From positions 248,001 through 312,000 of the forward strand of contig NZ_CP076668.1 in NCBI RefSeq assembly GCF_018968705.1: 64,000 nucleotides of DNA. Direction: 5' to 3'. Numbering within the stretch: the stretch's first letter is position 1; every line of letters begins with the position of its first letter. This DNA is from Pseudomonas lijiangensis (GTDB lineage: Bacteria; Pseudomonadota; Gammaproteobacteria; Pseudomonadales; Pseudomonadaceae). Below the pieces are notes generated by a model that worked only from the letters and a program-made list of their open reading frames with translations, was not told the DNA's origin and searched no databases. Made by a program: the position numbers and the translations under genes. Positions 8,747 through 57,192 of this stretch are shown in pieces.

Positions 8747-8840
8747 GAGCGCAAGGTCATGCAGGCTGATCCGTGAGGTTGAAACCAGGTACGGAATCGA
8801 CATTGCCAGACAGCTGGACTGGCAATGGATTGAATGAGGA

Positions 8841-9018
8841 CTCCCCGACGAACCGCTGTCGGTGTAGCCCTTGAACCCGAAAGTTCAAGGTGGTGATTGC
8901 AGGAGGTCTTAAGGCTTTCCGTCAAGCGGACATGCACACCGACCCCAACGTGCAACCCCCGTGGTTGTGCGTATCGGCTCAGGGACATGACCGACTGGCA
9001 AGCACTCCAGGGAGCGGC
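8841..9018 (-). ncRNA. ssrS: 6S RNA
   Basis: The minus strand between zapA and fau reads like Pseudomonas 6S RNA: GCCAGTCGGTCATGTCCCTG near the 5' side, ACGGGGGTTGCA in the middle, GTCCGCTTGACGGAAAGCCT, then the hairpin CTTGAACTTTCGGGTTCAAG near the 3' side. The ends pair over a long interrupted stem (start CGCTCCCTGG region, end GTCGGGGAG region). 6S RNA mimics an open promoter and holds sigma-70 RNA polymerase in stationary phase. Ends are approximate. Confidence 0.9.
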
Positions 9019-22176: not shown

Positions 22177-22206
22177 TTCGCGACTGAAGTCGCTCCCACG
22201 TGGGAG
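22177..22206. repeat. Left half of a REP palindrome split by IS110
   Basis: TTCGCGACTGAAGTCGCTCC followed by CAC and GTGGGAG: a full REP arm plus the first 7 nt of the opposite arm. The rest of the opposite arm is missing here and is found at 23437-23454 on the far side of the IS element. Confidence 0.85.
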
Positions 22207-22298
22207 CCAACTGTCTTTCATCGCTCCCCGATGAACGGGCATTTTCATGATGTCATCGCGGATAGATTCCGCGATGGCGGGCAACGCCCGCCCCCCAT

Positions 22299-23228
22299 TC
22301 AAACCACCTGATCACGCCATGGTGTTCCGTCGCGCGCCATGGCGTTCAGGCGAATCAGCAACACCCGCATGCAGGCCACCAGGGCCACTTTCGCGCACTT
22401 GCCTTTGGCACGCAGCCTCGCATAACGCTCCTTGAAATCGGAGTTGTAGCGCACCATCCCCAGCGCACACATGTAGGCCGCACGGCGTAGTTTCGACCGC
22501 CCACCGTAGATCTGCCGCTTACCGGTCTTGGTACCGCTGTCGTTGTTGTACGGCGCCACGCCGGCCAAGGCAGCGATTTGTCCACGGCTCAGGTCGCCCA
22601 GCTCGGGCAGGTAGCAGAAGAGGCTGGCGATTGTCACGGCCCCCACGCCCTTTACAGCCTCTAGCCGTTGCAGCAGTTCTGAGTCGACCCGGCGGGTTTG
22701 TGCAGCGACAAGCTGATCCACCGACTTGATCTGCACTTTAAGGCTGGCCTCCAACGCGAGGTAGATTTCCACCACGCAGGGCAGTACGGCCTGTTTGATA
22801 CGGCGCCGGTTGTCATCGCGTTGTTGAAGCAGGTTGCTACGCAAGTTGACCAGTTCAAGCAGGACTTCGCGTTCCTCGTCAGGCTTGGCGAAACCCTTTT
22901 CCTCCAGGCTGGAGGCGAACATGGCCAGCATTTGCGCGTCGATCGGGTCCGTCTTGGCGCGCTTGCCCATGGCCAGCGCGAACTGGCGTGAGCGGACAGG
23001 GTTGATACGCTGGACCTTGAACCCGGCATTAGCCAGCAGCTTTACCGACAGTCTCTCGTAACCCCCGGTGGCCTCAACAAGAACACGTTCAACCTGATGG
23101 GCGCTGAGGTACTCAGCGATGCTGGCGAGACCTTCTTCGGTGTTAGGCACGCAGAGATCATCTGCTTTGGGAAACAGTGCAACCTGCAGCGTGGCCTTGG
23201 AAACATCAATTCCGGCATAGGCGGACAT
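22299..23228 (-). CDS. IS110 family transposase (DEDD recombinase)
   Basis: 309 residues. The N-terminal RuvC-like DEDD domain begins SAYAGIDVSKATLQVALFP (first catalytic Asp in IDVSK), with VLVEATGGYERL (Glu, about 49-60) and AKTDPIDAQMLAMFA (Asp pair, about 91-105). The C-terminal Tnp_20 domain has VKGVGAVTIASLF, IAALAGVAPYNNDSGTKTGK with the conserved Ser, and RRAAYMCALGMVRYN. All expected catalytic residues are present and the frame is unbroken, so the element may be active. It cuts and rejoins DNA guided by a bridge RNA. Confidence 0.96.
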   Translation of the reverse strand: MSAYAGIDVSKATLQVALFPKADDLCVPNTEEGLASIAEYLSAHQVERVLVEATGGYERLSVKLLANAGFKVQRINPVRSRQFALAMGKRAKTDPIDAQMLAMFASSLEEKGFAKPDEEREVLLELVNLRSNLLQQRDDNRRRIKQAVLPCVVEIYLALEASLKVQIKSVDQLVAAQTRRVDSELLQRLEAVKGVGAVTIASLFCYLPELGDLSRGQIAALAGVAPYNNDSGTKTGKRQIYGGRSKLRRAAYMCALGMVRYNSDFKERYARLRAKGKCAKVALVACMRVLLIRLNAMARDGTPWRDQVV

Positions 23229-23248
23229 GAGTAAAACCTCTAGGATAA

Positions 23249-23415
23249 AGAGTGAGAGGCGCTTTGGCCTGGCTCACGCTTGTTGTTCGAGGTCGGACTC
23301 AGTCAACTGTTCGAGCTTTGAGCCAAAGCGGGAAGAGTGGATGGCAGCTTGGCTCCCACACGTGCTCTGGGCACCGCGAATGGTCAGCTTGCCATCCACC
23401 CCTCTCACCCCAGAC
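23249..23415 (-). ncRNA. Predicted IS110 bridge RNA
   Basis: The minus strand of the left end folds into two stem-loops. Stem 1 pairs 23390-23399 with 23337-23346 (GTGGATGGCA/TGCCATCCAC); its loop holds ATTCGC (23376-23381) and GTGGGAG (23353-23359), matching the two sides of the REP target. Stem 2 pairs 23322-23329 with 23261-23268 (GCCAAAGC on the plus strand); its loop holds ACAGTTGACT (23301-23310), 9 of 10 identical to the right end of the element (ACAGTTGGCT), and ACAAG, complementary to the left end CTTGT. This is the target-loop/donor-loop layout of IS110 bridge RNAs. Ends are estimates. Confidence 0.75.
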
Positions 23416-23436
23416 ATTACCCTGATCAAAGACACA

Positions 23437-23454
23437 AGCGAATTCATTCGCGAA
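23437..23454. repeat. Right half of a REP palindrome split by IS110
   Basis: AGCGAATTCATTCGCGAA, the distal part of a REP arm without its partner. Joined to 22177-22206 (sharing AG) it restores arms that pair at 21 of 23 positions. It ends 6 bp before the stop codon of the CYTH/CHAD gene. Confidence 0.85.
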
Positions 23455-54815: not shown

Positions 54816-54892
54816 TGGCGCACTCGGCGGGATTCGAACCCACGACCCCTGCCTTCGGAGGGCAGTACTCTATCCAGCTGAGCTACGAGTGC
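54816..54892 (-). tRNA. tRNA-Arg (anticodon CCG)
   Basis: 77 nt on the minus strand. Acceptor arms GCACTCG/CGAGTGC, D-loop with AGCTCAGCTGGATAGAG, anticodon arm CTGCC-CTCCGAA-GGCAG with CCG at 34-36 (reads CGG), T-arm GGGTTCGAATCCC, and encoded CCA. It separates the polysaccharide cluster from the RebB-like gene; tRNA genes are common insertion points. Confidence 0.97.
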
Positions 54893-57072: not shown

Positions 57073-57192
57073 CGCAGCGGGCTTGACCGGTAGCCGGGCG
57101 TTGCAGCAGTCGATCATCGTATGCTGCTGCAACCCACCCCGGCTGCTTAATCCTTGAACTACGCCGACCGATGAGCGGCGAATGAGGAATAC

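Follow-up and report, generated by a model that had tools for sequence, protein, structure and literature searches.

An IS110 element of the IS621 type in Pseudomonas lijiangensis with a REP-directed programme, and sX15 as the likely antisense strand of IS110 bridge RNAs

The window, by which we mean the whole stretch of 64,000 nucleotides of Pseudomonas lijiangensis DNA that was analysed (contig NZ_CP076668.1, positions 248,001 to 312,000), carries a complete IS110-family element lying between a gene for an Lrp/AsnC-type regulator on one side and a CYTH-domain gene on the other. The element and its immediate borders consist of the following parts.

22205-23438, minus strand: complete IS110-family element, 1234 bp including CT at both ends, with the same ends and length in all six copies in the genome
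22299-23228, minus strand: transposase (recombinase) gene of 309 codons for 309 aa; Pfam DEDD_Tnp_IS110 at 4.2e-21 and Transposase_20 at 5.4e-15
23229-23438, minus strand: non-coding left end of 210 bp, upstream of the transposase gene
23439-23454, minus strand: left half of the interrupted REP, TTCGCGAATGAATTCG
22177-22204, minus strand: right target half, CCCAC, and beyond it another REP in inverted orientation

The right tip of the element reads ...ACAGTTGG-CT and the left tip CT-TGTGTC..., and the non-coding sequence amounts to 210 bp upstream vs. 94 bp downstream of the transposase gene, a trait of the IS110 and not of the IS1111 group. The DEDD transposase domain, the C-terminal Transposase_20 domain and the catalytic serine that characterize the IS110 family are all present in the protein. 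Its nearest relatives of solved structure were ISCro4 (1.6e-25) and IS621 (chain 8wt6_A, 1.7e-25), and residues D8, E52, D94, D97 and S231 align with D11, E60, D102, D105 and S241 of IS621, the five catalytic residues named in PMC11208158. The right end of the element itself (22254-22291) contains REP-like palindromes, which read CATCGCGGATAGATTCCGCGATG and GCGGGCAACGCCCGC on the plus strand. Elsewhere in the window only ordinary RNAs, namely 6S RNA, a tRNA and gabT RNA, were matched at gathering scores (8838-9016, 54819-54892, and 57089-57147, respectively).

The genome (one contig, 5.87 Mb) contains six copies of the element, each 1234 bp long; four are identical to each other, as are the other two, and the two groups differ at 10 positions. 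Every copy is bordered by ATTCG to the left and CCCAC to the right and has CT at both ends, and we thus defined the target as ATTCG-CT-CCCAC. This 12-mer was found unbroken at 139 empty sites in the genome, with no occurrence of its reversed form. When the target sequence ATTCGCTCCCAC was compared with the one-base variant ATTCGCTCCTAC, the latter proved similarly frequent (135 sites) and was used by none of the six copies; the chance of all six choosing CCCAC is 0.507 to the sixth power, or about 0.017. In a 452-kb sample, ATTCG preceded 10 of 69 CTCCCAC sites (one of the 69 being the right junction of the window copy itself), so that six out of six would not be expected from indiscriminate use of CTCCCAC. 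The pattern GCTGCTCCCAC, written one C short of the intended one, underlies no count. Five copies reside in the plain REP TTCGCGAAT[G/A]AATTCG, and the sixth in a REP variant with an enlarged, longer hairpin loop and the identical 12-mer. A relict left end was also seen in the same genome near 2,920,303 (locus L007, 1506-1536): about 31 bp of the TAAGGTCAGG variant stand at the ATTCG/CT boundary of a REP variant with a longer hairpin, and the remainder of the element is absent. As read from the identical copies, the element may be active at present.

Within the left end, short words matching the target and the ends of the element were located at the positions listed below.

23376-23381, minus strand: left target guide ATTCGC, equal to the left flank ATTCG plus the core C
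23353-23359, minus strand: right target guide GTGGGAG, complement of CTCCCAC
23301-23310, minus strand: left donor guide ACAGTTGACT, for the donor ACAGTTGGCT, with one mismatch
23279-23283, minus strand: right donor guide ACAAG, complement of CTTGT at the left tip
23351-23352, minus strand: possible handshake guide CC of the target loop, complement of donor GG; its second base varies in relatives
23277-23278, minus strand: possible handshake guide CG of the donor loop, complement of target CG; retained where the target of relatives differs, with no covariation

The two target guides flank the GTGC/GCAC hairpin of the first internal loop and the donor guides sit in the second, each loop thus holding a left and a right guide, as in a bridge RNA. 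Among 20,000 dinucleotide-shuffled left ends none contained all four guides in order, while the single guides occurred 405, 597, 266, and 4,796 times. The sequence-only reading had recognized these four guides, and all were found on the minus strand where it had placed them; it had also described the guide in loop 2 as nearly equal to the right end, from which ACAGTTGACT indeed differs at one position, and had counted on an intact transposase, which is borne out by the full-length gene, its Pfam domains, and the retained catalytic residues. Some of its details needed slight amendment. ATTCGC, given there as one side of the target, pairs with ATTCG and the first core base, and a G stands where the core T would need pairing; the left end, closed there at 23436, reaches 23438, and the folded RNA, expected at 23.25-23.42 kb, covers approximately 23252-23409.

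Extended by the two bases that follow it, the right target guide (GTGGGAGCC) is complementary to the right product junction GGCTCCCAC, and ACAAGCG is likewise complementary to CGCTTGT, the left product junction. Such matches, which the sequence-only reading had not pointed out, are a prediction of the IS621 handshake model (PMC11208158). We nevertheless dropped the handshake guides as support, as the window fits the model and the relatives do not bear it out: among relatives whose donor end is ACAGTTG, 34 insertions have CC at these two bases, 14 have CA, and 3 have CT, and the donor-loop pair did not follow the target in the relatives compared.

The guides are embedded in a predicted RNA structure.

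23252-23409, minus strand: bridge RNA fold, with the target-binding loop followed by the donor-binding loop, from folding and covariance model R1

In the minimum-energy fold of the window's own RNA an outer stem closes both loops. The RNA at 23229-23409 gave an MFE of -77.4 kcal/mol (z -4.35), and none of 200 shuffled sequences was as stable. In an alignment of 21 distinct left ends, 13 of the 43 consensus pairs keep pairing through changes on both sides; a second alignment, made with flanks, gave 12 of 40 such pairs, with two outer arms paired instead of the 5′ stem. Model R1, trained on these 21 left ends with the window among them, scored 151.5 bits on the sense strand of the window and at most 17.9 on the other strand. 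Outside the training set it recognized left ends of IS110 elements from Bradyrhizobium (3.9e-9) and from plasmids of Escherichia (1.5e-8), Rhizobium (2.4e-8), and Klebsiella (1.6e-6). Model R1 matched at E<=1e-6 in 37 of 398 genomes of the genus, and a transposase search gave relatives at E<=1e-60 in 19 of 298, the own genome being counted in both cases and no more than seven candidates being scored per genome. The idea of a ribosome-binding-site switch, in which the outer stem GTGAGAG/CTCTCAC would compete with a hairpin hiding the site, was dropped because the predicted probability of the outer stem ranges from 0 to 1 across the 21 left ends.

We then compared guides with targets in relatives. 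Pattern extraction from the fetched loci yielded 101 left ends representing 74 distinct insertions (one of them an assembly duplicate in L100); left ends not fitting the pattern were left out, among them L027, L043/L044 (Bradyrhizobium), L101, L109, L112, L114, L115, L117, and L123. Left flanks could be scored for 71 insertions and right flanks for 62, the remaining 3 and 12 being too short or cut off. With wobble allowed, left guides pair at 378 of 426 positions vs. 347.4 (sd 3.2) when guides were swapped between insertions, and right guides at 432 of 434 vs. 422.5 (sd 0.9); neither value was reached in 20,000 swaps. These rows share ancestry. With one row per distinct guide, the 15 left guides pair at 79 of 90 positions vs. 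68.0 swapped (0 of 20,000), and the right guides, which leave 4 rows and hence a weak version of the test, had their value reached in 1,682 of 20,000 swaps. An earlier, smaller swap test agrees. Matched changes can be seen directly in GTAGGAG with CTCCTAC (L039, L041, L025, L104, L130), TAGGAAG with CTTCCTA (L013), AGCCAG with AGCCAG (L110), and GCCCC with GCCCC (L061, L089). There are counter-examples: L040 pairs at 4 of 6 left positions, three copies in genome G164 mismatch beside the core, and in L020 the left flank is shifted by one base. Across the clade of the window, one base of the donor guide fails to match the donor. On a tree of 26 transposases (23 labeled), in which the long branches, including those of L013 and L025, are unsure according to a program warning, the right guide changed at least 4 times and the left guide at least 9 times. 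Guides and targets thus covary among the relatives, as bridge RNAs do, and the family is a data set provided by nature, its guide slots having been rewritten repeatedly to suit the REP variants of different species, down to single bases (CCCAC/CCTAC).

The sequence-only reading had called the programme REP-directed, and this agrees with the six copies at one 12-bp target and with guides of relatives that fit their own targets far better than swapped ones. Neither of the two outcomes that it had named as refuting was seen: the survey of other copies, which could have turned up unrelated sites, found all six at the same REP target, and a conserved fold among related elements is apparent from the 13 of 43 covarying pairs over 21 left ends and the z of -4.35 for the window RNA. 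The covariance model built from related left ends also found the fold beyond its training set.

Several features of the relatives were recorded by the way. Apparent tandem bridge RNAs in genome G264 were rejected as an assembly artefact, since the duplicated stretches are joined by single Ns. Among 13 partial or odd matches (L116-L128), nine end at contig ends (L116, L118-L120, L122, L125-L128), and L124, whose transposase match is close to full length, is a more remote element. By eye, the right ends of L014, L016, L020, and L022-L024 hold an inverted, imperfect copy of their own tip plus the right target half about 40 bp inside, reading TGTGGGAGC...GCTGTCTT ahead of AAGACAGTTGCTCCCACA, and those of L025 and L027 contain REP-like sequence inside the element. 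In L040, 3′ of the transposase gene, right tip and right target stand in tandem (AAAGACAGTTGGCTCCCAC twice), as if a second end adjoined the first. Locus L110 has two opposed sets of CRISPR repeats (Rfam CRISPR-DR4; 565-1256) beside its IS110 bridge RNA, and its transposase match spans residues 1-59 only.

Joining the two ends of the element through the CT core would create a promoter-like sequence, of which the left end supplies one box.

23414-23419, minus strand: -10-like box TAATGT of the putative junction promoter; -35 TTGGCT from the right end plus core, 17-bp spacer, read from sequence

Across the joined ends the window has TTGGCT-17-TAATGT, its clade TTGGCT-17-TAnnnT, and the other left ends TTGCTT-17-TAnnnT. 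In the clade of the window the right tip is one base longer and the left end one base shorter, so the spacer stays at 17. In all 17 left ends that allowed the comparison, the junction scored above the integrated end; in 2 of 21 left ends the scoring chose a register one base off. In the window it beats the integrated copy by one match only, as the REP supplies TTCGCT, and its -10 box matches at 3 of 6 positions. A promoter of this kind at the joined ends was reported for IS621 and ISEc21 (PMC11208160 and PMC11187229), and its promoter-like counterpart appears to be rebuilt across the joined ends here.

Taken together, the anatomy, the six copies at one 12-bp target, the conserved fold, the covariation of guides and targets, and the promoter-like junction sequence with its kept spacing are best explained, in our view very probably correctly, by an IS621-type element directed to REP by its own bridge RNA. 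By analogy with IS621 and ISEc21, from which the steps of transcription, RNA binding, circle formation, and recombination are taken, excision would join the element ends through the CT core, and the joined ends would form a promoter from which a left-end bridge RNA of some 160-180 nt is made. In this RNA the first loop would base-pair to ATTCG-CT-CCCAC of the REP repeats on both strands and the second loop to the joined ends of the element itself, after which the DEDD/serine recombinase would insert the circle. Such an intact IS110 element of the IS621 type with a REP-directed programme is of a known kind.

The opposite strand of the left end gave a result of another sort. In a permissive Rfam search of the left end RF02234 (sX15) was the one match, and a candidate promoter box precedes it.

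23252-23413, plus strand: antisense match to Rfam RF02234 (sX15) over its full length; score 43.1 bits (E 3.6e-6), short of the gathering score of 55
23241-23246, plus strand: -10-like box TAGGAT of an inferred promoter for an antisense transcript starting near 23252

Nine of 14 relatives matched sX15 at E<=0.01, always antisense to the bridge RNA; L097 (57.9 bits) and L013 (56.0) exceed the gathering cut-off, and the match was absent in L017, L021, L025, L041, and L043. In six further loci, L124 scored 109.1 in the antisense direction, and L112, L114, and three plasmid IS110 elements had no match. Since matches are mixed among relatives, the link to sX15 holds for part of the family. sX15 was reportedly discovered as a transcript in Xanthomonas, and its host family was taken to be Xanthomonadaceae because the Rfam name says so. 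In the family of genome G409 it was found at E<=1e-5 in 30 of 198 genomes (22 above the cut-off), compared with 0 of 14 control genomes and 1 of 274 in a sample of the class. One sX15 locus per genome was examined, 30 in all. In 27 of the 30 the Pseudomonas bridge-RNA model matches the opposite strand at the same place, and in 19 an IS110 transposase match starts at most 50 bases from the sX15 5′ end, on the opposite strand. For the other 11, three have a transposase match elsewhere in the locus and eight have none, five of these lying at contig ends; the gene of L135 matches Pfam DEDD_Tnp_IS110 at 1.9e-21. From the bridge-model and transposase matches at the same loci we infer that a single locus carries sX15 on one strand and the IS110 bridge RNA on the other, and Rfam sX15 would accordingly be identified as the antisense strand of IS110 bridge RNAs, which we regard as a new lead. 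No paper linking sX15 to IS110 or bridge RNAs was found by titles or abstract openings in the open-licence literature.

The antisense box at 23241-23246 abuts GAGG (23237-23240). All 21 distinct Pseudomonas left ends and 24 of 27 sX15 loci (28 of the 30 had been given, one being too short to score) have a TAnnnT box 3-7 nt ahead of the antisense start, frequencies inflated by shared descent; at random places of the same loci the motif occurs at 1.3-1.5%. The inner letters vary (TACACT, TAGACT, TAGGAT, TACAGT, TAAACT) and TA...T is constant; these are the most constrained positions of a -10 box. No good antisense -35 was seen in 40 loci. These observations suggest that an antisense RNA may be transcribed, and may function, in this element. 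Wobble asymmetry was tried as a strand test and rejected: the ratio of 40 to 1 (G-U vs. A-C cells) was obtained on a structure derived from the sense strand and is biased by that choice. Counted on pairs common to both strands, the ratio was 4 to 1 for Pseudomonas and 1 to 2 and 3 to 6 for two sX15 sets, and in the light of these mixed values the wobble test is silent on which strand the structure serves.

Three other explanations of the locus have to be weighed against direction by the bridge RNA. It might be that the plus strand yields the functional small RNA, an sX15-like transcript, and that the sense strand is only a transposase leader. This would accord with sX15 being a catalogued sRNA, with the strand-neutral wobble count that leaves the strand undecided, and with the mapped antisense RNA of ISPpu9, Asr9, which is about 180 nt long and very stable and raised transposition 3- to 4-fold when overproduced (PMC8450116). 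Against it, the left-end RNA that acts in IS621 and ISEc21 is of the sense strand, the junction promoter, whose 17-bp spacer is preserved, is oriented in the sense direction, and the consensus folds have a somewhat greater stability when computed for the sense strand (-50.6 vs. -48.9, -50.7 vs. -44.7, and -69.7 vs. -65.9 kcal/mol). We give this explanation a small chance of being right.

A very small one is left to recognition by protein, in which the transposase itself would read REP hairpins by sequence or shape and the guide-like words would be by-products. Several IS elements, not all of one kind, do target REP hairpins (PMC1525189); yet targets switch with guides among relatives, the six copies pass over REPs that are one base off in the right half, and one of the six occupies a REP variant whose hairpin differs but whose 12-mer is the same. 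As words of six or seven bases are short and single guides turned up in about 1 to 24% of shuffles, the matches might also be due to chance, or to REP sequence captured in the left end. Neither would account for four guides in order, which no shuffle reproduced, nor for a right guide that is a complement and a left guide of the same sense, placed inside a conserved fold and both varying with the target across species; own guides, moreover, fitted better than those of others in the swap test. We see next to no chance for this explanation.

We tentatively propose, at somewhat under even chances, that IS110 elements of Pseudomonas and Xanthomonadaceae make two RNAs from each left end: the sense bridge RNA from the excised circle only, and an antisense 'anti-bridge' RNA (sX15, Asr9) from every integrated copy, through an internal promoter with its -10 at the transposase RBS. 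As the antisense RNA would pair with all bridge guides at once, integrated copies could adjust, acting in trans, the number of circles that reach new targets. If true, an sRNA already catalogued in Rfam would belong to the control circuit of a transposon; and if the antisense transcript is general, bridge-RNA systems would have a built-in control layer, which is relevant to work with bridge recombinases.

Among the known systems, IS621 of E. coli, also of the IS110 family, is alike in its DEDD and serine recombinase, CT core, junction promoter, REP target, and left-end RNA with target and donor loops (PMC11208160 and PMC11208158). It differs in its distant recombinase (phmmer E 1.7e-25), its other REP and guides, a right target guide of 4 bases vs. 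7 in the window element, and with regard to the outer stem that closes both loops in the fold of the window's own RNA. ISEc21 with its seekRNA shares IS110 membership, the upstream non-coding RNA, the junction promoter, and a guide fitting both target strands, but has its target in IS3-family transposase genes and not in REP (PMC11187229). ISPpu9 and ISPpu10 of Pseudomonas putida, likened here by their published description, each occupy a fixed REP position in every copy, with direct repeats of two bases (PMC1525189). For Asr9 of ISPpu9 (IS110/IS492 family) the layout is similar, with a -10 overlapping the transposase RBS and a -35 in the first codons, whereas ISPpu9 is set apart by an mRNA leader of 244 nt and by another sRNA further downstream (PMC8450116). 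Rfam sX15 has in common the full-length match on the strand opposite the bridge RNA; it differs in that the Rfam description, as shown, does not mention IS110, and the window falls under the gathering cut-off. Fixed-position occupation of REP by ISPpu9 and ISPpu10 has been known since 2006 (PMC1525189) and guide-target covariation for IS110 at large since 2024 (PMC11208160). The REP-directed element itself belongs to a known kind, and the putative antisense RNA is the fresh lead.
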